A stretch of 64,000 nucleotides of DNA from a virus: the IMG/VR virus record IMGVR_UViG_3300037107_000081, positions 1-64,000 of that record; one strand, written 5' to 3'. Both the position numbers and the translations under genes were made by a program. Shown in pieces: positions 19,856-60,952 of the stretch. How positions within the stretch are numbered: position 1 is the stretch's first letter; each line of letters starts with the position of its first letter. The notes below the pieces were generated by a model, which was given only the letters and a program-made list of their open reading frames with translations, did no database searches and was not told where the DNA came from.

Positions 19856-20830
19856 ACGCACGAAGCTTGTCAATTATTAGGAATACCCGTAAATTCCCCA
19901 ATGGAAGATGCTAAGGCCGCATTTAAAAAACTAGCAATACAATATCACCCAGATCGAAATAAAGATCCAGGCGCAGAGGATAAGTTTAAGGAAATTAATA
20001 CAGCTTTCCAGTTCCTTGAGAAATATGGAACCAATCCTCAAAACAATATTAATACGGGAGGTTTTGGTTTTAATATTGATTTCGGTGACCTTAATCAACG
20101 TATGGCCCAGATGTTTCACCAGAATTTTGTCATTAATCATCCAGGCCCTCCAATTGTAATAACCATATCAATTCCTTTCGAGATGTCTGTCCTTGGTGGA
20201 AATAAAGAAATTACATATAATAGATTAGTGAAATGTGCCAATTGTATAGATGGAAAAACTAAAGTGCCTTGTAAGAAATGTAATGGTACAGGTAAACGAA
20301 AATATGGCGGTGATTTTAATGGGGGATTCAAACCAGCTGATGATAGAGAACTTCCCTGTAATGGATGTACAGCTACCGGATCCACTACCTATGGAATATG
20401 TAAAGCCTGTAATGGATCATCTAAAACACAAACTTCAGAGACATTTTCAATCCAAATCCCACCAGGTGTTCAAAATGGTAACAACTTAATAATGAATGGT
20501 AGAGGAAATTATCGGATTATGGATTTGTATGATGCACTTGTTATTGTTATAAACGTTGAAAAAGACCCTGATTTTATCCTTGTTGGAAATGATGTTATAT
20601 CTAATGTTGAGCTTAGTTTGTTGGAAGCCCTCAAAGGAACAAAGAAAAGCTTAAGAACTATAAAAGGTGAGAAAACATTACAATTCAATCCAAAGATAAA
20701 AAACGGTGATAAAATAAAGGTATCAGGATTCGGAGTACCACCAAACGGCCATCATGTATACGAAATTACTGTAAACTATCCAGAAGATGTGTCAGAATTA
20801 ATTAATGTACTGGAAAAAGATATTATATAA
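19850..20830 (+). CDS. dnaJ: DnaJ (Hsp40) co-chaperone with zinc-binding domain
   Basis: The J domain (residues 1-70) keeps the essential HPD (33-35, QYHPDRN). A short Gly/Phe-containing linker follows. The cysteine-rich zinc domain (about 125-190) has four Cys pairs (CANC, CKKCNGTG, CNGC, CKACNGS). The C-terminal substrate domain (about 190-320) is shorter than in E. coli DnaJ (326 versus 376 aa). It should stimulate the ATPase of host DnaK and deliver substrates. No phage DnaK or GrpE is in the window. Confidence 0.95.
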   Translation: MNTHEACQLLGIPVNSPMEDAKAAFKKLAIQYHPDRNKDPGAEDKFKEINTAFQFLEKYGTNPQNNINTGGFGFNIDFGDLNQRMAQMFHQNFVINHPGPPIVITISIPFEMSVLGGNKEITYNRLVKCANCIDGKTKVPCKKCNGTGKRKYGGDFNGGFKPADDRELPCNGCTATGSTTYGICKACNGSSKTQTSETFSIQIPPGVQNGNNLIMNGRGNYRIMDLYDALVIVINVEKDPDFILVGNDVISNVELSLLEALKGTKKSLRTIKGEKTLQFNPKIKNGDKIKVSGFGVPPNGHHVYEITVNYPEDVSELINVLEKDII

Positions 20831-20869
20831 ATTCTCTGGTAAAAATAAAGTAAATGACCAAAATGTAAC
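20831..20869 (+). repeat. dispersed motif, forward copy before the zinc-ribbon gene
   Basis: The sequence is ATTCTCTGGTAAAAATAA, then AGTAAATGACCAAAATGTAAC. It directly follows the dnaJ stop. The middle word AAATGACCAAAATG is shared with the copy at 33522. The next gene begins 27 bp later with AAAGGA. Confidence 0.75.
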
Positions 20870-20896
20870 AAATGGATAATATTATAAAGGAAAACA

Positions 20897-21253
20897 ATGG
20901 ATTATAGATCATTCTGCGACAACAAAGACTGCCATAAAGAAATGAGACCGGTAGTTGATAAGGAAACTTTAATTGCTTATTGTACCGAATGTGGAAAGCA
21001 AGTTAACAACATTTCTCCATTCATGCGCCGACAAATGATGTCCTTCGATCAAATAAGGCGTAATGAAAAAAAGAAATTACCATGGGCTATAAAATGTAAC
21101 GGCGAGAAGTGTAAGAAGGAAGGCCCACCTGAATTGAAGGAAGGTAAGTTGGTGTGCTCATTCTGTGGAAAAGAATTAGATCATGTCGCTAAGCCTTTTG
21201 CCGAAATGATTAAAGTTAACCTTACTGCACAGAATAGGGCCGATGGAAAGTGA
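20897..21253 (+). CDS. double zinc-ribbon protein (118 aa), possible primase zinc-binding partner
   Basis: Two four-cysteine ribbons are visible: CDNKDC with CTECGK (about residues 7-34) and CNGEKC with CSFCGK (about 68-95). The stop overlaps the GTG start of the TOPRIM primase. DnaG-type primases normally have an N-terminal zinc-binding domain, and the primase here lacks one. This separate protein could supply it. That link is inference from context. Confidence 0.65.
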   Translation: MDYRSFCDNKDCHKEMRPVVDKETLIAYCTECGKQVNNISPFMRRQMMSFDQIRRNEKKKLPWAIKCNGEKCKKEGPPELKEGKLVCSFCGKELDHVAKPFAEMIKVNLTAQNRADGK

Positions 21254-22050
21254 CCGCCATTGCTCAACATAAATCAAAACAAAAAATATTGAATAAAGTT
21301 GTCTTGGCGTGTAGGCACTTACTTACATCAGAACAAGCTAAGAAGGCCAGGATTTGTCTTAATTCCAGGCTTTCTAAGGAACATCAGCAGGCTTGGCAAT
21401 TCGGATACTTCCCAACCGATGATCATTTAAGTGATTTGACAGATTTGGTTGATAAAAAAGATCTTGAACAACTAAATATATATTATCCAAAGTATATTTC
21501 AGGTGGTCAGATGGCGCATGGTCATTTTAGTGAACATAATTTATTAATGCCTTTTTATAATGTACATGGGGAAATAGTAAGCTTAGTAGGAAGATGTTTA
21601 TTATCTGAGGAAGAAAGACAAGAAGCTAAGCTGAATAAATATAAGTATAGCGCCGGTTGTAAAAAAGATCTGTTTGTCTATGGATTAAATAAGGCTAAAC
21701 AATCAATTATAGAGAAAAATTGTGTGATTGTAACGGAAGGCCAGTTTGACGCGATCTCATTGAATATAATGGGGATTGAGAATGTAGTGGCGTTGGGGTG
21801 GGCAAACATTTCTAGATATCAAATGTTTCAGCTTCATAGGTATACTAATAATATTATACTGATGCTTGATAATGATGAGGCTGGTCAAAAGGGTAAGGTT
21901 AAGATAAAAGAGAAATATAAAGATGTGTGTAATATTAAATTATTAAGTCCTCCGAAAGGATTTAAAGATATAGATGAGTTTTTTAGGAGCTCGAAAGATA
22001 TTGATATGGTTAATCGTGTTATATGTATGTTAAATGGCTTCGCGTATTAA
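21250..22050 (+). CDS. DnaG-type primase catalytic core (TOPRIM)
   Basis: Translation starts at a GTG overlapping the upstream stop. The 266-residue protein has the primase N-subdomain pattern (FGYFPTDDHLSDL, then LLMPFYNVHGEIVSLVGR, about 97-114). A TOPRIM fold follows, with VTEGQFDAISL (about 161-171) and LMLDNDEAGQKG (about 205-216). It synthesises RNA primers for the DnaE-type polymerase. No helicase domain is attached, and the N-terminal zinc ribbon is absent but encoded just upstream. Confidence 0.87.
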   Translation: MTAIAQHKSKQKILNKVVLACRHLLTSEQAKKARICLNSRLSKEHQQAWQFGYFPTDDHLSDLTDLVDKKDLEQLNIYYPKYISGGQMAHGHFSEHNLLMPFYNVHGEIVSLVGRCLLSEEERQEAKLNKYKYSAGCKKDLFVYGLNKAKQSIIEKNCVIVTEGQFDAISLNIMGIENVVALGWANISRYQMFQLHRYTNNIILMLDNDEAGQKGKVKIKEKYKDVCNIKLLSPPKGFKDIDEFFRSSKDIDMVNRVICMLNGFAY

Positions 22051-42749: not shown

Positions 42750-43054
42750 GCATAGAAAGTGAATTAGCATCTATTTGTAAAGATATTAGGTTACTTGGTG
42801 ATAATAAGTTAACCAATGATGCTATTTGTGCTTACGCTGCCCTAACTGATACTGAAAATCCACGACCAGACCTATCATATTCGTATATTATTAGGAAGTT
42901 GCGTAAAGGTGATGATGATAGACGTTTGAAATTCCAAAAAGCTTTTAAGAAGGCGTTTGATAGTGCTTTATATGAAGATGTTGAAGATCCAGACGCTGTT
43001 GCTTTGATGGTTGCAATGAAGGCTATTGATTTCAAGGATGAGAATGCCAGCTAG
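42746..43054 (+). CDS. small hypothetical protein (102 aa)
   Basis: The gene starts at a GTG overlapping the previous stop, and its end overlaps the phosphatase start by 11 nt. It is a charged helical protein with YIIRKLRKGDDDRRLKFQKA in the middle. No family is recognised. Its position implies tight co-translation with the phosphatase. Confidence 0.55.
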   Translation: MSIESELASICKDIRLLGDNKLTNDAICAYAALTDTENPRPDLSYSYIIRKLRKGDDDRRLKFQKAFKKAFDSALYEDVEDPDAVALMVAMKAIDFKDENAS

Positions 43055-44090
43055 ATTTGCCAAAGTAACCAAAGATTTATTTAGGGGTGGTTGTCCATCG
43101 CTTAAAGATAATGATATTGAATCTTTAAAGCGTATGGGAATAAATAAAATTGTAAGTCTTGATGAAGAGTGTGGTGAGCGTATAAAAGAAAAGTGTAATG
43201 AGCTGGGTATTCATCAAATTATATGGGGATTGGGTGCAGGCAATGATCCTAAAGTTGCTGCATTAAAAAAGAGAATTGTTCCAACGCTTACTCATGGTGG
43301 CCCAACGTATGTTCATTGCTTACATGGAAAAGATCGTACAGGAATGACAGTGGCTATGTATCGTGTTTATTCTGGATGGTCTGTTGATAAAGCATTAAAA
43401 GAAGCAGCACAATTCGGAATGGGAACTCACCTACCACCAGATGTTGCTAAAACTTATTATGATGCTGTAAAAGAATTCGCAAAAGATCTGGAGGAAGATA
43501 AAAGTAATGCGTTAGATGCTGTTTCTTTAACTAGGATGACTAATTCATTTGGCCCAGAAAACCCCGCTGTTGATGATATGACAATTTCCAGACCGGTTAA
43601 TTTTAATCTTCCACCAGGCACAGATATTGAATTTAGTCAGCTTAGTAGAATTGCTTCAGCTAAAATTTATATTAAGTGCAATTCAGGAGATTTATTAAAA
43701 CCAGGATCTTTTTGGTGGGGCTCAAAAGAATTGGCAAACAAAAATCCTATAAATTCTTCTGGTAAATTATTTTCGGCCAATTTAATATCATCATCTAAAT
43801 TTGAAAAGTTCGACGGGAAGGTAAATAAAAATCTAATAAACAATGTATTAACAAGAGATATTGATGTAGCTATTCTTCGTGATAATCAATATTTAATTAT
43901 ATGCCCAAGCTCTTTAATAGATATTCAAGAAGAAAATGATGATATAAATGATTTGGTAGAAGTAGGAATGAGAGATAATTCTACCGATTATACGTATGCT
44001 TATCCTGGAAGTGGAAGTGGTTTAGGTGGAATGCCAGATGGAGCAGCAGGTTTTGTACAATTACCGTTTTCAGGAATAGGTCAGGTTTAG
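43044..44090 (+). CDS. tyrosine/dual-specificity protein phosphatase with C-terminal extension
   Basis: Residues ~1-155 form a compact DSP/PTP domain. The P-loop is VHCLHGKDRTGM, with catalytic C92 and R98 (CX5R), and an upstream LFRGGCPSL entry segment is typical of the PTP-like family. The C-terminal ~190 residues are beta-rich with a Gly/Ser tail (YPGSGSGLGGMPDGAAGF) and unknown. Such enzymes hydrolyse phospho-Tyr/Ser/Thr or other phosphoesters. It lies between portal and scaffold genes, so it may be virion-associated. AAGGA sets ATG 43044 over 43038. Confidence 0.82.
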   Translation: MPARFAKVTKDLFRGGCPSLKDNDIESLKRMGINKIVSLDEECGERIKEKCNELGIHQIIWGLGAGNDPKVAALKKRIVPTLTHGGPTYVHCLHGKDRTGMTVAMYRVYSGWSVDKALKEAAQFGMGTHLPPDVAKTYYDAVKEFAKDLEEDKSNALDAVSLTRMTNSFGPENPAVDDMTISRPVNFNLPPGTDIEFSQLSRIASAKIYIKCNSGDLLKPGSFWWGSKELANKNPINSSGKLFSANLISSSKFEKFDGKVNKNLINNVLTRDIDVAILRDNQYLIICPSSLIDIQEENDDINDLVEVGMRDNSTDYTYAYPGSGSGLGGMPDGAAGFVQLPFSGIGQV

Positions 44091-44753: not shown

Positions 44754-44912
44754 ATGTTAATCAAAACTGGTGATGCAGAAATTATTGGTGTCATTGATTC
44801 GAAGTCGGAAGATATCGAAAGCAAGAATAGCGAAGTTGTAGCGTCAACACTCTTAGATATGGCCAAGAAACGTATTTCTGAATCGGATCAAGATAAAGGC
44901 TTGGAGAACTAA
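44754..44912 (+). CDS. small protein (52 aa) sharing its N terminus with the next gene
   Basis: TTAAGGG precedes the ATG, and the TAA overlaps the next ATG (TAATG). The first residues MLIKTGDAEI resemble the next protein's MLIKLGESVC. The rest is acidic helix (DIESKNSEVVASTLLDMAKK). It may be a duplicated N-terminal fragment or a small coupled partner. Confidence 0.55.
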   Translation: MLIKTGDAEIIGVIDSKSEDIESKNSEVVASTLLDMAKKRISESDQDKGLEN

Positions 44913-47900
44913 TGTTGATAAAACTCGGCGAGTCTGTTTGTATTAGACCTGAAGATATACGACCAGTTGAAAAATTGGTTAGTGATTCTGATTTAGATAT
45001 TGAAAACAGAATGTATAGATTTGCTCAGGAACTTAAAGTTATTGCTCCTAAAGCAAAAGACTTTCTATATTTTACTGCCGTTATGATGCATGCTGCTGAG
45101 GCTGCCTGTGTTAATGATGATGGATCTCCAAAGAAAACAGCATCGGGTGAGGTTGTTTCTGCTACATGGGAAAAGGTTGGAGAGGGCGTCAAGTGGGTTT
45201 GTAATGATCCAAATATCAAATGTTACCGTAACAATAATAGAGATATTTTTCCAGAATATGAATTAAAGTTAGCGTATAAGAAATGGATAGGTCGTCCGTT
45301 ATGCCTCGATCATCAATCACAGTCGGTTGATAAGATTCGAGGCGTTATTGTTGATACTGTATATGATGATCGTAGAAAGAGGTTAATTGCTCTCTGTGCC
45401 CTTGATTCAAAAAATTATAGTGATTTAGCCGATAAGGTTACTAGTGGTGTTGCTAATAACGTATCGATGGGAACCGGGGTTGGCAGGGCTGTGTGTTCAG
45501 AATGCCAACGAGCCGCTAGAACCGAAAAAGACTTTTGCCAGCACATGAAGAATAAGAGTTGTTATGGCGAAATTAACTTGGAACTGTCTCCGTTAGAACT
45601 TTCTTTAGTAGTTGCCGGAGCCGATCCAAAAGCCAAAGTTAAGCATATTATTGCCAGTGATATTGCTAAAGCTGCGGAATTACTTTCTGATTATTTGCAT
45701 GTTAAAGAAGCGGTATCTAGGCAAGATCTAACATCTATACAGGAAGACCTAAAGAGCCTAATGGGTAAGATTGAAGCTATGGCTCATGATAGCGATAAGA
45801 AAGACGAGAGTGATGCGGTTGGTCCGACTCGCTCTAGATGGTCGATGGATGAAGTCAGTAATGAACCATCGACTCAGTTTAATGTTCCTGAGGCATTCCC
45901 AACTTACGCCTCAGAGCTACAAATGGCAATTTTGGGAGCTCAAACAAAACTGGCAAGCTTGCAGGACAATATACTTAGACTATCTAATAATAGTAACGAG
46001 GAATCAATCATGACTACAAAAGAAGCATATTTTCAAGGTACAGAGGAACCAAAACCAGGACAGAAGCAATACGCTGTGGATCCGTTGAATGAGAAAGCCA
46101 GACTATTGGACAAGAATCTACATGGCCCAGCTCCATTTCCAAACACTGGATCTGTAGATGGTATGTATCCTGGTGATGATAAAACCAAGAAAGATTTGCA
46201 GCGCCTAGCGGATGAGCATGAGCGTGCAATGTTCCGTGAAGCTGCTTTGAAGAAGGCCAAGGAACAATTGAAGCAAGGATATTTCCAGGGAACGGAAGAG
46301 CCAACTCCTGGTAAGCCACAATATACAAAAGATCCGCTTAATGAGAAGGATCGTTTATTGGATAAGACCATGGTTGGCGAAAAACCGTTCCCAGGAGTAG
46401 GCAAGGTTGATGGTCTTTATGGTGACGATCTTGCTGAAAAAGAAAAGCTTTCACGAGCATCTTTGAAGGCTAGATTTGAGAAGGTTGCTCTTCCAGATGG
46501 TCGTATTAATAAAGGCGCTTCTAATTGGGTTGTTCTAGCTAATGGAAAACCAATTCTTCAAGCTTCTGTTGCTCAGATCACTCGTGGTAATGAAGAGCAT
46601 TTGTATGATGCGATTGCTACCGAGCGTTTTGGTAGGTCACTATTAAATCGTATTCAGACTGAAGGTTTTGAAGCTACTGCTAATGATTTACTCAAGACTG
46701 CACAAGCTCCAGCCGCTCCTCCTCCAGCCCCAGAAGCTGCGCCAGCCGGTGATATGCCCCCACTTGAGCCACCAAAGGATGTTGCTAGTGAGGGTGGAGA
46801 ACCAGGTGAAATTGTAGATGATATTCAGTCGCTTGTTGATGAAATGGAAGGCAAGATTAGTGATCTTAAGGATAAGGTTAGCGGACCTGTTTCTGAGGAC
46901 GCTGAAGGTCTTGGTGATGTTCCTCCGGCAGGTGATGAGGAATTCGCGGTTCCAGCTGGTGGTGCTCCTGCTCCTAAGAGCGCATCACAGCTTCAATCAA
47001 TGCGTAAACGTGTAAATGTGATGTTGCAGGATGGTATTGATGAGACAATTACTTCTTTATCTAAGCATGTAAATGAACTAAAGACTGCGCAAAAAGTTTA
47101 TAAAGAATCATATGCATCAATGACTGAAGAGCAACGTGATTATATTAACGATCTAACAATTTCGGCCGTGAAAGATGCTAAGGCTCAACTTAATGATACC
47201 AATAGGTTGATGGAAGCTGTTGTTAAGTATGCTACAGGAACAGCTGGTGTTGAAAAGCGCGCACATGAAGAGGGTCTCAATACCGATGAACTTCTTGATG
47301 AAATTGAAGGTGGAAAGGGTGGTGATGACACTTATCTAGACAATGCTGCATTTGAAGATGAGTCACCAGAAGCCACACCAGAAACCGGAAAAATGAAAGA
47401 TTTCTTGTCTGAACTTGGAATTGATTCTGAGAAGGATAATGATGCTGATATGGATGGAACATTAGCTAATGGTACCCCTATTAGTATTAACGATAAGGGA
47501 GAGGCATTACTTGGAAAGAGTACAGGAGGAGCAAAATTGGAATTATCAACTAAACAAGCGCGTGCTGAGGTACGTGTGAAGCTTGCCGAAAAGGGCTTGC
47601 TTGGGTTCAACGAATTGTCTAATGATGCTCATCCAGGTGGCAGTGTAGATGCTGTTTCTGCCGGTAATTTGGATGTAAAACCAAGTGTTCCGGGGTCTGC
47701 ATTCCATGTGGCCAAGGATATTAAAGACGCAATGACCGAATTGGCAAATATGCCTCCTCGTGTTCGTAAGCAGGCTGAGGTTATTAATGAGCTTGTTTCT
47801 TCGGGTAAGATGAGTGCTGAGTCTGTTGATGGTCTTGTGGCTCATGGTATTGATCCTGATGCAGTCAAGTATTGGAAGGAATTGTATGGTCAGGGTGATT

Positions 47901-48274
47901 CGCAGTCGAAGGAATTCGCAACAGAATTAACCAAGGAACATGCCAACGCCAAGAAAGCTGAGGAAATGGAACAATACAAGGGTAAGCTAAAGAGAGCTTA
48001 TCAGGTTGCACAGCAAATGATTGTTAAGGGAATGATTAGTGAAAACCAATTAGATTCCCAGGTTGAAGATATTATGAATTGGAATGATGCTGGTTTTGAA
48101 AGCATCAAGAATATTCTATCAAGACAAGCTTCAATCAGTAAGCAAGCATCCTTACCGGTTGTTGGTCTTTTGGACTCAGGCTCGGTAATTCTTCCAGCGG
48201 CACAAAGCGCAACACAAGAAAGTATAAATATCAAAGGTTTGTTTGATAATCACTTTGCGTCGAGGAAATTCTAA
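44912..48274 (+). CDS. candidate prohead protease-scaffold fusion (1120 aa)
   Basis: Residues ~1-260 resemble phage head-maturation proteins. GRPLCLDHQSQSVDKIRGVI (about 126-145) has a conserved His, and NNVSMGTGVGRAVCSECQ (about 184-201) has a candidate Ser followed by Cys pairs (CSEC ... CQHMKNKSC). The following ~860 residues are Ala/Glu/Lys-rich helix with Pro linkers (PAAPPPAPEAAPAGDMPPLE), like scaffolds. Two ~52-residue repeats lie at about 371 and 456. A protease role is inferred from motif layout and position, and the zinc-like cysteines are unusual for it. Confidence 0.6.
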   Translation: MLIKLGESVCIRPEDIRPVEKLVSDSDLDIENRMYRFAQELKVIAPKAKDFLYFTAVMMHAAEAACVNDDGSPKKTASGEVVSATWEKVGEGVKWVCNDPNIKCYRNNNRDIFPEYELKLAYKKWIGRPLCLDHQSQSVDKIRGVIVDTVYDDRRKRLIALCALDSKNYSDLADKVTSGVANNVSMGTGVGRAVCSECQRAARTEKDFCQHMKNKSCYGEINLELSPLELSLVVAGADPKAKVKHIIASDIAKAAELLSDYLHVKEAVSRQDLTSIQEDLKSLMGKIEAMAHDSDKKDESDAVGPTRSRWSMDEVSNEPSTQFNVPEAFPTYASELQMAILGAQTKLASLQDNILRLSNNSNEESIMTTKEAYFQGTEEPKPGQKQYAVDPLNEKARLLDKNLHGPAPFPNTGSVDGMYPGDDKTKKDLQRLADEHERAMFREAALKKAKEQLKQGYFQGTEEPTPGKPQYTKDPLNEKDRLLDKTMVGEKPFPGVGKVDGLYGDDLAEKEKLSRASLKARFEKVALPDGRINKGASNWVVLANGKPILQASVAQITRGNEEHLYDAIATERFGRSLLNRIQTEGFEATANDLLKTAQAPAAPPPAPEAAPAGDMPPLEPPKDVASEGGEPGEIVDDIQSLVDEMEGKISDLKDKVSGPVSEDAEGLGDVPPAGDEEFAVPAGGAPAPKSASQLQSMRKRVNVMLQDGIDETITSLSKHVNELKTAQKVYKESYASMTEEQRDYINDLTISAVKDAKAQLNDTNRLMEAVVKYATGTAGVEKRAHEEGLNTDELLDEIEGGKGGDDTYLDNAAFEDESPEATPETGKMKDFLSELGIDSEKDNDADMDGTLANGTPISINDKGEALLGKSTGGAKLELSTKQARAEVRVKLAEKGLLGFNELSNDAHPGGSVDAVSAGNLDVKPSVPGSAFHVAKDIKDAMTELANMPPRVRKQAEVINELVSSGKMSAESVDGLVAHGIDPDAVKYWKELYGQGDSQSKEFATELTKEHANAKKAEEMEQYKGKLKRAYQVAQQMIVKGMISENQLDSQVEDIMNWNDAGFESIKNILSRQASISKQASLPVVGLLDSGSVILPAAQSATQESINIKGLFDNHFASRKF
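46024..46440 (+). repeat. duplicated ~52-codon segment in the protease/scaffold candidate
   Basis: The protein segments starting AYFQGTEEPKPGQKQYAVDP (residue ~371) and GYFQGTEEPTPGKPQYTKDP (~456) both continue with LNEK(A/D)RLLDK, a PFP motif and (S/K)VDG(M/L)Y. They are separated by a charged helix. This is an intragenic duplication, perhaps a binding module or processing site. Confidence 0.75.
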
Positions 48275-48328: not shown

Positions 48329-49252
48329 ATGTCTACTAATAAATATGATATTGCTTCAGCTATGAATGGGATAATAAGCGACCCAGTTAATCAATCAATT
48401 TTCTCAAGGCCACAACCCCTTACCAAGACAGCTGCAAAGAAAGATGATACCGCTGATAAGGCTAAGGCTGAAAAAGAAAAAGCTAAGGAAAAGGCTGCTA
48501 AAGAGAAGGAAAAGGAAAGGGCTGCTAAGGAAAAAGCCAAAGAACAGGCTGCTAAAGCTAAGGCCAAGAAAAAGGCTTCAACTAAATATGAAGCTTGCGT
48601 TATTGGTTTGTGCAAAATTTCTGAAATGCTAGATGAGGCTGGTTTGTCAAAGTCGTCTTCATATGCATTGCTAGCACTTAACGATTTGATTAGTACTGCC
48701 GCAAAGAAGAAGGAAGAAAAAGAGGAAAAGGCTAAGGGAAAGAAAGATGAAAAGGGCAAGGGCAAGAAAGAAGAGCCCAAGGACGAAAAAGCTAAGGGCA
48801 AGAAAGCACCTCCGTTTATGAAGAAGGATGAAAAAGGCGACAAGGATAAGAAGGTAAAGAAGGCAGATTATGGTGTTAAGCATGAGCTAACTCCAGGTTA
48901 TGTAAATCCTTGGAATGACAAATCAACCAAGTCTTTTCCTGGCGATCCTATGAATTTTTCGCTTGCTCCTGAAAAACCAGCTGCGGCTCTAAAATCAATT
49001 ACACACACTGATTCTGCATTTCGTCCAGGTGACCCGCTAAATCAAAATGGTGATTATGTTGCTAGCGCAGATGATTGTGAATACGCTGACGATGAAGAAG
49101 TAAGTAATTGTGATGATTTTGATACTTTGTCAAATCAGATCGATCCTGATTCTTTGTGGGAAACCGAAGTTACAGCTGATGAAGAGAAGACTTCTTTGCA
49201 GAAACTTGCTGAGGAATTGGAGGCAACCAAGAGTTTTTTAGCCGCAAAGTAA
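48329..49252 (+). CDS. Lys/Ala/Glu-rich virion-module protein (307 aa; zero-frame product of a frameshift pair)
   Basis: GAGG 7-10 nt upstream marks the start. Residues ~32-83 and ~125-180 are low-complexity Lys/Ala/Glu runs (AKEKAAKEKEKERAAKEK) around a helical hairpin (CVIGLCKISEMLDEAGLSKS) that recurs in other virion genes. The acidic C-terminal third has repeated FPGDPMNF/RPGDPLNQ motifs. The protein ends 4 codons after a T_TTT_TTA slippery site (49234-49240). A -1 shift there would extend it by 163 residues to 467. Histone-like or DNA-neutralising packaging of head contents is possible from charge only. Confidence 0.75.
   Translation: MSTNKYDIASAMNGIISDPVNQSIFSRPQPLTKTAAKKDDTADKAKAEKEKAKEKAAKEKEKERAAKEKAKEQAAKAKAKKKASTKYEACVIGLCKISEMLDEAGLSKSSSYALLALNDLISTAAKKKEEKEEKAKGKKDEKGKGKKEEPKDEKAKGKKAPPFMKKDEKGDKDKKVKKADYGVKHELTPGYVNPWNDKSTKSFPGDPMNFSLAPEKPAAALKSITHTDSAFRPGDPLNQNGDYVASADDCEYADDEEVSNCDDFDTLSNQIDPDSLWETEVTADEEKTSLQKLAEELEATKSFLAAK
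49219..49240 (+). promoter_or_regulatory. candidate programmed -1 ribosomal frameshift signal
   Basis: The zero-frame codons are AAG AGT TTT TTA GCC. T_TTT_TTA (49234-49240) fits X_XXY_YYZ and is the heptamer used by HIV-1. GGAGG (49219-49223) lies 10 nt upstream, the spacing at which an internal Shine-Dalgarno stimulates -1 shifting in E. coli dnaX. A 6-bp hairpin (TCCTAA ... TTAGGA, 49269-49288) lies downstream, farther than usual. The -1 frame is closed at 49210-49212 and open from 49213, so the window for shifting is short and includes this site. Confidence 0.75.
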
Positions 49253-49731
49253 TAGCCGGTAAAAAAGATCCTAAGGCCAAAGTTAGGAATAGACCGGATC
49301 CAATTTTCAGTAGTAAACATTCTAAAGTAAAAGATGATAAAGATCACTTTCCGATTGATACTATTGAATGCGGCAGAAACGCTCTTGCTCAATGTGAAAA
49401 ATATGACTCGGCCCCTACGTGGTGGAAAGGATCCTTAAAAGAACTTCAAAATTCCGTATCAAGGGCTGTACATAATGAGTATCCAAGTATTAAGAGTGAA
49501 AATAAAAAGAAATCTAGTCACGAGGTATTATTAGAGGTTTTAGGTAGTAGTAAAAAAAGACCGGTTCCATTCTGGGATATAGGAAAAATGACAGATCCAA
49601 TGCTTGATGAATGGGAAGCTATTTTACAAGGACAAAAGGAATTCAGAGACAATCCATTATACGATATTTTCTTAAAAGACATTGCTACTGAAAAAAGAAA
49701 TAGACAAATGGATTTAAAGCGAGCAGTATGA
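49240..49731 (+). CDS. -1-frame C-terminal extension (163 codons) of the 48329 gene
   Basis: The frame from 49213 to 49731 has no ATG, GTG or TTG before codon ATG 49588. Even so, it encodes an ordinary soluble protein: RNRPDPIFSSKHSKVKDDKD, then LAQCEKYDSAPTWWKGSLKE, then RPVPFWDIGKMTDPMLDEWE. It fills an otherwise gene-free 475-bp gap and its stop overlaps the next ATG (ATGA), as neighbouring genes do. Translation by -1 frameshifting from 48329 explains all of this. A sequencing error in the six-T run is the main alternative. Confidence 0.75.
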   Translation, partial: SRKVIAGKKDPKAKVRNRPDPIFSSKHSKVKDDKDHFPIDTIECGRNALAQCEKYDSAPTWWKGSLKELQNSVSRAVHNEYPSIKSENKKKSSHEVLLEVLGSSKKRPVPFWDIGKMTDPMLDEWEAILQGQKEFRDNPLYDIFLKDIATEKRNRQMDLKRAV

Positions 49732-49943
49732 AAAATTTTACTACAGATATTGAAAATAATATGGCCTTTTTTATGGGAGGAGATCTTAAGAAATCTCTAA
49801 ACAAAGATGAGGCCATATGCTCGTTGAATAAAGCACGAAATCTTCTTCAGAATGCCGGATTGGAAACTCTTTGTGTTGCCATTGATGCGATTGTTAAAAA
49901 GGCAGAGTTTATTGACGAAAGTAACATCGAGGTAACCATATGA
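49728..49943 (+). CDS. small helical protein (71 aa)
   Basis: It begins at an ATGA overlap with the stop of the frameshift extension and overlaps the next gene by 4 nt. It contains the recurrent hairpin pattern ICSLNKARNLLQNAGLETLC, then VAIDAIVKKAEFI. It is probably a small virion or assembly protein by context. No family is recognised. Confidence 0.6.
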   Translation: MKNFTTDIENNMAFFMGGDLKKSLNKDEAICSLNKARNLLQNAGLETLCVAIDAIVKKAEFIDESNIEVTI

Positions 49944-50281
49944 TTTTCAAGCAGGGATCTTGTGAGGAAGAGCTTTTTGAGGGTATGCAAAATGCTCAAC
50001 AAGAAGCAATTGTAGCTGAAGATCAACAGTATGAGCGTTTAATTTTGGCAGCAATGGAAGAATTAAATGCTGCGGCTGAATGTTTCGAAAAAGCCGGAAG
50101 AACAGCGAGGGCAGCAGAAGTTACTACCGTTATGATTGCTTTGGCTGACTCAAAAAAGAAAACAAAACCTTCTGGTAAAAAAAGTGAAATGATAAAAATG
50201 TTTAAAAATTTCGGATTCACCCCAAAAGACCTGGGATATGCTTCTGATGAGGATGCTGAAAACGAAAAAGAGTGTGAGTAA
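49940..50281 (+). CDS. small helical protein (113 aa)
   Basis: Coupled to the previous gene by an ATGA overlap. The central helical hairpin (ILAAMEELNAAAECFEKAGR, then TARAAEVTTVMIALAD) has the same layout as in the neighbouring virion genes. A near-complete copy of the dispersed motif lies in frame at 50169 and encodes PSGKKSEM before a Lys/Phe segment. The C terminus is acidic. Function is unknown. Confidence 0.6.
   Translation: MIFKQGSCEEELFEGMQNAQQEAIVAEDQQYERLILAAMEELNAAAECFEKAGRTARAAEVTTVMIALADSKKKTKPSGKKSEMIKMFKNFGFTPKDLGYASDEDAENEKECE
50169..50202 (+). repeat. dispersed motif, in-frame copy inside a gene
   Basis: The sequence is CTTCTGGTAAAAAAAGTG, then AAATGATAAAAATGTTT. It closely matches the 33522 copy and encodes SGKK in the 113-residue protein. 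Confidence 0.6.
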
Positions 50282-50872: not shown

Positions 50873-51568
50873 ATGACATTAAGACTTGTTCAGGTAGGAA
50901 ATGCACTACCAGTATCATACCCAGTTGATCCCTCAGCAGAATTTGAACCCGGTATGATTGCTCAGCTTTATTTGCGTGGTAATAATATTGTTTGTGGTGT
51001 TAGTGATGGAAGAGCACCGTTGGGTATTATAGATGATTTTAAAACAAGAGCTTTTACAGCCCCTTCTATTGATGAAACTGTTATAGCAGCAGCTCCGGCA
51101 ATTGATGATGGTAGTGGTCATCTTATTACTCCAATAGATGTAAATATTAATCTTATAAATCCAAATGTTATTCCGGCTAGTTTTATTACGTCGCCTGTTG
51201 ATGTAGCCCTTAATGCTCGAAATGGTATGATTACTTTTCCAGCAGGAACACCATTGAATTTTGATTTGGATGGTGATGGTATTCCAGATTCAATTAGAAC
51301 AATTTGCAGTTATATTTATCAGGTCCCAAACATTTCTGGTGATGATTCTACTGCAGGAAGTGGACATATTACTGTTTGGTTTATGAGAGGAATATATCAG
51401 TGTGATAGCTACGAGACAAACCAACGTTATCCACTTAATGCTATATTATTTGTATCAGAGAATGGAAAATTAACAACTTCTCAGCCAAATGATGACTATC
51501 CAGGTGTTGCAATGGTAACTGGGCCACCCAGCGCTTCAATGTCCAGTTTAGAATTTGAATGGCTTTAA
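50873..51568 (+). CDS. capsid-decoration-like protein (231 aa), paralog of 16907-17611
   Basis: It shares full-length similarity with the gene after recA: AEFEPGMIAQLYLRG, CGVSDGRAPLGIIDDF, LITPIDVN, FPAGTPLNFDLDGDG, GHITVWFMRGIYQC and SENGKLTTSQ. The GxxTxW and NGKL elements also occur in the 59136 gene next to the capsid gene. A DGDGIPDS loop could bind calcium. It is likely a head-surface protein. An HNH gene begins 7 nt after its stop. Confidence 0.7.
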   Translation: MTLRLVQVGNALPVSYPVDPSAEFEPGMIAQLYLRGNNIVCGVSDGRAPLGIIDDFKTRAFTAPSIDETVIAAAPAIDDGSGHLITPIDVNINLINPNVIPASFITSPVDVALNARNGMITFPAGTPLNFDLDGDGIPDSIRTICSYIYQVPNISGDDSTAGSGHITVWFMRGIYQCDSYETNQRYPLNAILFVSENGKLTTSQPNDDYPGVAMVTGPPSASMSSLEFEWL

Positions 51569-51575
51569 AATTATT

Positions 51576-51953
51576 ATGAAAACTATATATAAAACATGTA
51601 GTGGATGTAGAGAAACAAAAATACCCAATGATTTTTATAAAAACTCAAAACAGTTTCATGTTAGTAAAAATTTAGAAAAGGAGATACTTAAGAGGCTACC
51701 ATATACAGCTGATGAATTAAGGTTGCATATAGAATCATTATGGGAGCCGTGGATGAATTGGGATAATTATGGTAAGTTTGATAAAAATAAAAAGACTTGG
51801 CAAATTGATCATATAATTCCACAAAGCAAGTTGCCATTTGATTTTCTTGATCATAAAAATTTCCTCAAACTATGGGCGCTTGAAAATCTACAACCGCTTG
51901 AAACCATTGCCAATATCAAGAAAGGTAATAAAATAATACCCAAAGCAGCCTAA
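51576..51953 (+). CDS. HNH homing endonuclease-like protein (125 aa)
   Basis: The C-terminal half has an HNH core (WQIDHIIPQSKLPFDF, then HKNFLKLWALENLQPL, about residues 78-110), including the DH pair and the Asn. The N terminus begins with CSGCRETKIPNDFYKN, the first half of a zinc-ribbon common in phage HNH proteins. The second Cys pair is missing, suggesting an internal deletion. It is inserted between two decoration paralogs and abuts the next ATG. It probably behaves as a selfish mobile gene. Confidence 0.82.
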   Translation: MKTIYKTCSGCRETKIPNDFYKNSKQFHVSKNLEKEILKRLPYTADELRLHIESLWEPWMNWDNYGKFDKNKKTWQIDHIIPQSKLPFDFLDHKNFLKLWALENLQPLETIANIKKGNKIIPKAA

Positions 51954-52744: not shown

Positions 52745-54415
52745 ATGATTTTTGCAAAATATACAGATAACATATATTCGTCTGAAGTTTATCGTGAACT
52801 TGAGCGTCAGGCTGTTAAGAAAGGTTTTTTCAAGCCAACCGAAACTGAATTAGTAAAGTTAGCGGCGGATGAAGTTAATAAGGTTGAAAAAATTAATCAA
52901 GAAGTAGATGTAACTCCTTCTAACGATTTTATTCAGGATGTGGCTTGTTTGGCCTATGCAATGAGGCGCAAGGGATTTGTTACGTTGGCAGAAGATCTTG
53001 AAGAGAAGTTGGTTATTTATAAGAAGGCCGAGAATGAGCTTTATAATGTTAATATGGAAAAGACGAAAGATTTTATTGATTTCGCTCACAGAGATGGTGA
53101 TGTCAATCTTATCGATGGGTCAGGTGAGTTGGGAACTATAGAAACACAACAGGGAATGGCTGATAAGATTTTAGCTGTTGTTAATAAGAATCCTACGGGA
53201 AAGTATCCAACTAATAAAATTGCTGAGTTTGCTGCTGAAATTATGAAGAAAGCACAAGAACAAAACGCTTCTGAGATGCCGGCTGAAAACCAAAGTACTT
53301 ATCAACCTGATTCGTCTGCTCCAAAAAATATAAAAGAATCATTAACAAGGGCCGCAGTTGTTTTGAACGATGTTGAGAGTGTTAAAAATAATCAACCAAT
53401 ACCTGTTAGTTCTTTTTCATTTAATGATCAAATAGAAAAAAAAAATGAAGTTCAGAACGCTTATATATATTTTGCTCGTTTAGCTGGCGTAAATGTAAAT
53501 CAAAGAAATATTCAGGCGTGGTTTATATTAAAGGGAACGGCGGGTGATAAAGGAGTTTTAACTGATGGTGACGTTCCGGTTATTAGTGCGGCCAATCTTC
53601 AATCAGCATATAAAAACGCATATTCATCAAGTTTTACCCCTTCTGCTGCTAATGGTATCTTGCAAAGTATAGCCGCTGCACTTGGTGTTGGTCCTACTTT
53701 TGCTTCTAAATATATTAATGAAACTAGTAAATATGATCTTTTTGCTGGTGGCTTAAATATGGCTCCAAATTGGGATAATGTTAACGCTGCTTGTAAAGAG
53801 TTGGCAGATCAAGCAAGTAAATTATATATAAGTGTTTGGGGCGTAAATAATGATACTATAACCAAAGCAACAGCGATATTACAAAGTATGCCAGATAATT
53901 TATATAAAAAGATTAATACTATTGATACAAAACAAAATTTTCAAAACAATGTAAACAAAGCTTTATCTGATCTAATTAATATTTCAAAAACCATCAGCTT
54001 AGCAAGAAATGATTTTACAAAACAACCGACTTATAATTATATGAAAGCGATTGTTAATGATATAGATCAAATAGTTACATGGGCTGATGGAATTGTAAAA
54101 CACATTTCTGATAGTTATAAGACTGTGGCAACTCCAGAACAACGAAAACCATTTGATATTGATACTCGTGAATTAGATAAAGCATACAATTATTGGTTAA
54201 TTCAAGCGCAAAGTGAAGATGAGGCAACTAAAAATAAAGCCACACATATCGCTGATAGAATACAACAATTAAAAGGAATTTTAGATCAGGGACAGGGTAA
54301 GATTTGGCTTGAAGTAAAGGACGATCTTGAGGCGAATGGTATTAGTGCTCCAACTAAAGAAGCTCTTCAAAATAGCATAAATACAATTGCCAACTCTGCA
54401 AAAGGTGGGAGATAA
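52745..54415 (+). CDS. virion-module protein (556 aa)
   Basis: The N terminus (~110 residues) contains a helical hairpin of the recurrent type (FIQDVACLAYAMRRKGFVTL, then AEDLEEKLVIYKKAE). An Asn/Ser/Pro-rich linker (~175-200) and long helices follow. The C terminus ends NTIANSAKGGR with the next ribosome site (GGTGGGAG). It is the first of four consecutive large genes likely to encode internal or tail proteins. No enzyme motif is seen. Confidence 0.6.
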   Translation: MIFAKYTDNIYSSEVYRELERQAVKKGFFKPTETELVKLAADEVNKVEKINQEVDVTPSNDFIQDVACLAYAMRRKGFVTLAEDLEEKLVIYKKAENELYNVNMEKTKDFIDFAHRDGDVNLIDGSGELGTIETQQGMADKILAVVNKNPTGKYPTNKIAEFAAEIMKKAQEQNASEMPAENQSTYQPDSSAPKNIKESLTRAAVVLNDVESVKNNQPIPVSSFSFNDQIEKKNEVQNAYIYFARLAGVNVNQRNIQAWFILKGTAGDKGVLTDGDVPVISAANLQSAYKNAYSSSFTPSAANGILQSIAAALGVGPTFASKYINETSKYDLFAGGLNMAPNWDNVNAACKELADQASKLYISVWGVNNDTITKATAILQSMPDNLYKKINTIDTKQNFQNNVNKALSDLINISKTISLARNDFTKQPTYNYMKAIVNDIDQIVTWADGIVKHISDSYKTVATPEQRKPFDIDTRELDKAYNYWLIQAQSEDEATKNKATHIADRIQQLKGILDQGQGKIWLEVKDDLEANGISAPTKEALQNSINTIANSAKGGR

Positions 54416-59941: not shown

Positions 59942-60952
59942 ATGTCTTTATTTGATACCCATGGTGGTATGAATGCTTCGTCTGTAAGAGACGCATTGAA
60001 TACGTTAGTTAAATACGCAGCGATCATAGAAGAAGGTCAGCCCTCGAATATGGCGCTATCAGGTCAACCAAGCCTGAATGATGAGAAACGAGATGAGCTT
60101 ATCGCCAGAGCAATTATGACCCAGGAAGGGAAGCTTGCTCTTGCTCAGGCTATGGCAAACCCAATTCGTAGAAACCTTGATTATCAGGGAATTGCACGTC
60201 GTCTGTTGGTCGTAGATCCACTTCCACAAGGAGTAGATCCGAAGTATGAGCGTGATATCGATGTCGCAGCTACCGTTATTTCCAGCAATGGTACCGGTGG
60301 TGAAAGCCGCGTGTTCGGTGATCGTATCGTAATTCCTACCTTCGAACTTTACTCGAACCCAACCGTTCGCATTTCAGAAGTTCGTCGTCGTAGATTCAAC
60401 GTGATTGATCGTGCGGTCCAGAAGGCACGTCAAGAAATAATGGCCCAGGAAGATGCCAACATTTTCGCAGCCATTGATGCAGCTTCAACTGTTGAGAATG
60501 CCGCTCAGGATATTACTGATGGTGGAATGCTTAAGAGAGACTTGGTCGATATTAAGGTCCAGATTGATCGTTGGGACCTGGTAACGACAAAGTATTTCAT
60601 GAATATCAATGAGTTTACTGATATTCTTAACTGGGCATCCGGCGGTGGCCAGGGCGCAGGTGGTGGAGAAATTGATCCAGTTACACAGCGCGAAATTCTC
60701 CAGACCGGTCTCTATGCTCACATTTGGGGCGCGGACATTATGGTGTCAAAGATTGTTCCACCAGGAACCGTTTATGGAGCGGCCGATCCAGAGTTTGTAG
60801 GTGTTTTGCCCATAAGACAAGACATCGAGGTAATTCCGGCCGATGAGCCGAAGCAACTCAAATTGGGTTGGGTTGTGAGTGAAGAAATCGGCATTGGTAT
60901 CGTGAATCCACGAGCCGTTGCTGTATCGCGCAAGTCAACGATTGTTCAATAA
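59942..60952 (+). CDS. major capsid protein (HK97 fold)
   Basis: The 336-residue protein lies after the decoration gene and before a strong terminator. RRNLDYQGIARRLLVVDPLP (about residues 77-96) and VRRRRFNVIDRAVQKARQEI (about 154-173) are helical E-loop and spine-like regions. RWDLVTTKYFMNINEFTDIL, then TGLYAHIWGADIMVSKIVPP is the P/A-domain pattern of T4-like capsid proteins. Codon usage is biased as in its neighbour, fitting the most abundant virion protein. AGGAG precedes the ATG. An N-terminal segment may be cleaved by the phage protease. Confidence 0.85.
   Translation: MSLFDTHGGMNASSVRDALNTLVKYAAIIEEGQPSNMALSGQPSLNDEKRDELIARAIMTQEGKLALAQAMANPIRRNLDYQGIARRLLVVDPLPQGVDPKYERDIDVAATVISSNGTGGESRVFGDRIVIPTFELYSNPTVRISEVRRRRFNVIDRAVQKARQEIMAQEDANIFAAIDAASTVENAAQDITDGGMLKRDLVDIKVQIDRWDLVTTKYFMNINEFTDILNWASGGGQGAGGGEIDPVTQREILQTGLYAHIWGADIMVSKIVPPGTVYGAADPEFVGVLPIRQDIEVIPADEPKQLKLGWVVSEEIGIGIVNPRAVAVSRKSTIVQ

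Follow-up and report, generated by a model that had tools for sequence, protein, structure and literature searches.

The window analysed here comprises 64,000 nt of the 75,033-base virus record IMGVR_UViG_3300037107_000081. The genes around the locus of interest include those for terminase (35871), portal (37825), a head protease (44912) and the major head protein (59942-60952). The portal is closest to that of Bacillus phage G (31.6%), and the protease domain is likewise closest to phage G. The gene carrying this domain, which served as the synteny anchor in the comparisons below, specifies a protein for which a search of bacterial genomes gave no relative. It is followed by a Lys/Ala-rich gene and by a second open reading frame that overlaps the end of the latter in the -1 frame. 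The features of the region are as follows:

44912..48274, plus strand: upstream gene, prohead-protease domain and a long additional region (phrog_18299 head maturation protease, E 2.2e-16)
48329..49252, plus strand: zero-frame ORF, specifying the short, Lys/Ala-rich product of 307 aa (read from the sequence, with orthologues aligned)
49213..49731, plus strand: -1 frame ORF, with 163 post-slip codons (49240-49728) and a TGA stop (49729-49731)
49219..49223, plus strand: GGAGG, a Shine-Dalgarno-like candidate stimulator 10 nt upstream of the heptamer
49234..49240, plus strand: predicted slip site T_TTT_TTA (U_UUU_UUA), a heptamer in zero-frame phase and invariant in four lineages
49250..49252, plus strand: zero-frame stop TAA, 9 nt past the heptamer
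49254..49298, plus strand: weak possible stem pairing CCGGT with ACCGG, suggestive
49267..49500 (approximate), plus strand: conserved DUF6582-like domain (DPKAKVRN...KVKDDKDHFPI...ARNALAR...WWxGSLKEL...AV..AVHxKYPSI)
49728..49943, plus strand: next gene, 71 aa, whose ATG overlaps the -1 frame TGA; syntenic in relatives

The zero frame of the window ends in AGT TTT TTA GCC GCA AAG TAA, and contains in phase the heptamer U_UUU_UUA, which is that of HIV. By calculation, the unshifted product has 307 residues, and a product shifted at T_TTT_TTA would have 304 + 163 = 467. An initial annotation, made from the sequence of the window, had read this junction as a programmed -1 ribosomal frameshift. 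Its coordinates for the two frames, the heptamer and GGAGG all match the sequence, recomputation returned the same two product lengths, and the overlap of the -1 frame stop with the next ATG (at 49728) was borne out. The same annotation described the Lys/Ala-rich protein as a virion protein, a label derived solely from gene order. Its position in the gene order suggests a role in the head or in head assembly, and it differs from the major head protein. By eye, four genes (48329-49252, 49728-49943, 49940-50281 and 52745-54415) share a common helical motif, L..A...L..AG....A......I..A, and look as if made of one small module. Two other features of the region may be mentioned. Between the portal and protease genes, nt 43026-44090 specify a tyrosine-phosphatase-family domain (Pfam PF03162, E 6.8e-10), and amid the head-module genes there is a possible HNH-type endonuclease ORF (nt 51555-51953, CSGCRETKIPNDFYKN...WQIDHIIPQSKL), also recognised by eye. 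Near the position of the latter, two relatives (loci L061 and L063) carry a different, GIY-YIG-like-looking ORF.

Relatives were collected from IMG/VR by scans with the -1 protein, the domain alignment and the syntenic upstream protein. The two-frame layout was found in four phage lineages that have diverged from one another (window/L004, L003, L005 and L006/L007), the only four independent ones available. Locus L004 is identical to the window over 550 nt around the slip site, while L006 and L007, each from its own metagenome, differ at a single position over 12,321 bases. The Lys/Ala/Glu repeat region of the zero-frame gene (window 48440-48580) differs from that of L004 by a 33-base insertion, the two phages being otherwise >99% identical, and this repeat is therefore quick to change length.

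In the junction alignment, T_TTT_TTA is identical across the four lineages, phase included, and is among the longest invariant blocks. The sequences that flank it vary in length on either side and also in their codons, but the seven bases are constant. The codon that carries the first T of the heptamer is AGT, GAT, GGT or GGT, specifying three different amino acids, yet the T is kept in all four. The zero-frame stop follows the heptamer at a distance of 9 nt (window and L003) or 3 nt (L005 and L006). The -1 frame of L003 does not open until the heptamer, since the stop before it ends on the base immediately upstream, and in L006 the corresponding stop ends 3 nt ahead of the heptamer; these stops confine the frame change to 16 nt (L003) and 13 nt (L006) of sense sequence. 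The heptamer is rare in this phase, with two occurrences in the 18,257 codons of the window's long plus-strand ORFs, and one each in the loci of L003, L005 and L006, always at the junction. When the rate of the window is applied to all lineages, an in-phase T_TTT_TTA would fall within the overlap by chance with a probability of about 0.0004-0.002 per lineage; all four lineages have one there.

The form of the conserved run also bears on how the two frames are joined. The polymerase could add a U at the T6 run, with normal translation of the altered transcript yielding the fusion. A conserved homopolymer run is present, and such transcriptional slippage is used by bacterial genes and IS elements (PMC5009743), but six T's is short, as the runs on which bacterial polymerase slippage has been described comprise nine A's or T's (PMC5009743). 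In no lineage does the run exceed six T's, and in each it is ended by A and has the form and phase of a tandem-tRNA heptamer, which a slipping polymerase does not need. This route is therefore improbable compared with a shift of the ribosome.

Between lineages, the -1 part shows amino acid identities of 62-86%. Past the slip site, dN is 0.09-0.28 and dS reaches 1.05 or more where it is not too saturated to be computed, with the differences concentrated at third codon positions. The -1 frame is, on this pattern of substitution, under purifying selection, and the initial impression that it reads as a normal protein is upheld by values of dN well below dS across the relatives. It was also said to have no ATG, GTG or TTG codon until near its end, and this is correct for the stretch ahead of the conserved domain, where none is present in any of the four lineages; in L003 the stretch is also without ATT, ATC, ATA and CTG. 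The absence of starts bears on whether the -1 ORF could be a separate gene, translated from a non-standard start or by reinitiation past the zero-frame stop. An ATA does occur downstream of the slip site in the window and in L006, and elsewhere the domain is found as a small gene with its own start codon (L022, L023, L028 and L067). A separate gene would, however, have to do without any of the usual starts in four of four lineages, and in L003 without the less usual ones as well, and it would leave the conserved in-phase heptamer and the fused genes of the sister group (below) unexplained. This makes it very unlikely.

Two relatives with the same gene order as the window, L008 (218 kb contig) and L058 (336 kb contig), encode the N-terminal part and the domain in a single uninterrupted frame, and no in-phase T_TTT_TTA was found in either within the stretch retrieved. 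Four more distant but syntenic loci (L060-L063) have a Lys/Ala-rich gene without the domain. Orthologues of the zero-frame protein that occupy the same position and align from residue 1 are present in L003, L005, L006, L008, L058, L060 and L062, while L061 and L063 carry more divergent genes of the Lys/Ala type at that place. The start of the protein can thus be aligned across the frameshift phages, the fused phages and two of the domain-less phages. In a tree built on the upstream protein, the frameshift, fused and domain-less types separate with two changes, the minimum. Support was 91/94 for the frameshift group and 100/100 for the frameshift and fused groups together, and these two groups are sisters.

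Relatives with both parts in one uninterrupted frame had been named in the initial annotation as evidence that would count against a frameshift. Such relatives do exist, yet because L008 and L058 form a sister group without an in-phase T_TTT_TTA in the stretch retrieved, they are taken to support the reality of the fused product and not to refute the frameshift. Given these fused genes, the frameshift product of the window clade is very likely their functional counterpart. That the T run was misread or misassembled, or that what is truly one frame has been inactivated by mutation, was initially considered the main alternative and might find support in the existence of fused relatives, but it is effectively refuted by conservation across lineages, as the T6A heptamer, its phase, the nearby stop and the two-frame layout are kept in separate assemblies of four divergent lineages, and a broken frame would not hold dN well below dS.

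Homologues of the added domain were found at 37 IMG/VR loci. Five of 20 domain members match Pfam DUF6582 (PF20223), all weakly (best E 1.2e-4), and the copy in the window does not match this family at E<=1. Searches of NCBIfam returned nothing and those of BFVD only insignificant matches; among solved structures there was no sequence match, and no fold match at E<=0.001. The small core of the domain is confidently predicted (pLDDT ~85-96) to consist of short strands and two helices. An Ig-like identity was considered and rejected, as there was no match to an Ig family and the predicted structure is one of short strands plus helices. Neither the junction DNA nor the -1 protein matched any of 50,697 phage records, a divergent copy of the domain gave no match to known phages, and a literature search gave no paper on DUF6582.

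The domain also occurs elsewhere, in many large phages, where it either forms a small gene by itself or belongs to another protein. A pattern scan for additional frameshift-type loci returned the known ones and L067, but the latter was rejected because its domain starts from an ATG of its own, in a separate gene. Similarly, the domain ORF of L028 seemed to lack a start until a GTG, accompanied by a plausible ribosome site, was recognised. At L040:3453 (IMGVR_UViG_3300029967_000162), a DUF6582-like domain follows directly after the in-frame TGA of a long ORF (MSYMWEE*KNKDLNVLLESGRGHCIFPAEHSKVKD) and has no preceding start codon, which could reflect readthrough, recoding of some other kind or an error. 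The window itself specifies about 60 extra residues after the domain (nt 49540-49728, SSKKRPVPFWDIGKM...) that are missing in L003, L005 and L006.

Candidate stimulators of a shift are less well conserved than the heptamer. The GGAGG motif was initially proposed to act as in E. coli dnaX, where the Shine-Dalgarno-like element has the same 10 nt spacing. It is present in the window at this distance, but L003 has no equivalent, and the AGAGGA of L005 (at 6 nt) and AGAGGAG of L006 (at 11 nt) differ in spacing and sit within the codons of a conserved Glu-Glu-Leu. Alignment of relatives had been suggested as a check on the junction, and it shows the T6 run, its phase and the zero-frame stop to be conserved while GGAGG is not. 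Downstream, L003, L005 and L006 can form an 8-9 bp stem beginning 7-8 nt past the heptamer, which is a usual distance. Against synonymous-codon shuffles, which preserve the -1 protein, these stems gave statistically weak values (0.21 for L003, 0.04 for L005 and 0.06 for L006). The window has no stem at this position, only a shorter pairing further off. Folding energies and a dedicated helix test, compared with the same type of shuffles, gave marginal values, and for this reason a stem or pseudoknot is not claimed. As U_UUU_UUA is less shift-prone than A_AAA_AAG in E. coli (PMC5009743), a stimulator is nevertheless to be expected.

Taken together, the locus most probably represents one gene that specifies two proteins, with a ribosomal -1 slip at U_UUU_UUA adding the DUF6582-like domain. 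The programmed frameshift proposed in the initial annotation is supported by the conservation of the heptamer, its phase and the nearby stop, by selection on the -1 frame and by the fused genes of the sister group. Most ribosomes would continue in the zero frame to the stop at 49250-49252 and produce the 307-residue, Lys/Ala-rich head-module protein. In a fraction of ribosomes, the tRNAs for Phe (on UUU) and Leu (on UUA) would slip back by one base (49234-49240), and these ribosomes would then read the -1 frame, adding the 163 residues that include the DUF6582-like domain to give the 467-residue protein. The short form would be the bulk component and the long form would place the domain on a minority of copies, which may be built into the head or an assembly core beside the short form. 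The shift is presumably translational, and its efficiency, its stimulator and the incorporation of a minority of long copies into the head are likewise presumed.

Frameshifts in phage structural proteins that append C-terminal domains are already known; what is new here is the carrier protein and the domain. A literature search found no description of this case, judged by the titles and abstracts of matches. In gene 10 of phage T7 (10A/10B) and in the coat protein gene of T3, a late -1 frameshift produces a C-terminally extended form (PMC5009743). The likeness lies in a head gene with an extended form beside a main form, which in the window is predicted from sequence. The T7 and T3 genes, however, specify the major coat protein whereas the Lys/Ala-rich protein of the window is distinct from its major head protein, the added domains are unrelated, and the T7 slip site is of the G_GU type (PMC5009743) rather than T_TTT_TTA. 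Ig-like domains, as in T3 and Lactobacillus phage A2, are mobile C-terminal additions that are in-frame in some phages and frameshifted in others (PMC5009743), an alternation that parallels L008 and L058 versus the window clade, although the window domain is DUF6582-like and is attached to another carrier protein. The tail assembly chaperones G and GT of phage lambda are also a short and a long form that arise through a -1 shift within a morphogenetic module, but they precede the tape measure gene while the window gene sits downstream of the head protease gene and upstream of that for the major head protein, and no sequence relation between them was seen.

Bacillus phage G, the portal and head protease of which are related to those of the window, also offers a comparison. 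Its record (NC_023719.1, nt 19865-21534; L064:9366-11035) joins the endolysin gp22 to a -1 frame extension (gp22/gp23), and A_AAA_AAG occurs there immediately before a TAG, between the head protease and capsid genes. This is a different protein with a different slip site, and it is not homologous to the window gene.

There is an even chance, in our estimate, that a lineage of giant phages, uncultured and distant relatives of phage G, sets the proportion of domain-bearing copies of the head-module protein by an HIV-type U_UUU_UUA shift, while its sisters hard-wire the domain and the outgroups are without it. The predicted 467-residue protein escapes ordinary gene calling, and the locus would add a conserved recoding site, in an unannotated gene family, to the two-frame morphogenetic genes of phages. 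If the interpretation is true, these phages provide a natural three-state series (none, all and some) for studying the evolution of a domain dose that is set by frameshifting, and because the relatives supply all three states, with no domain, with a fused domain and with a frameshifted one, the role of the product ratio would be directly testable.
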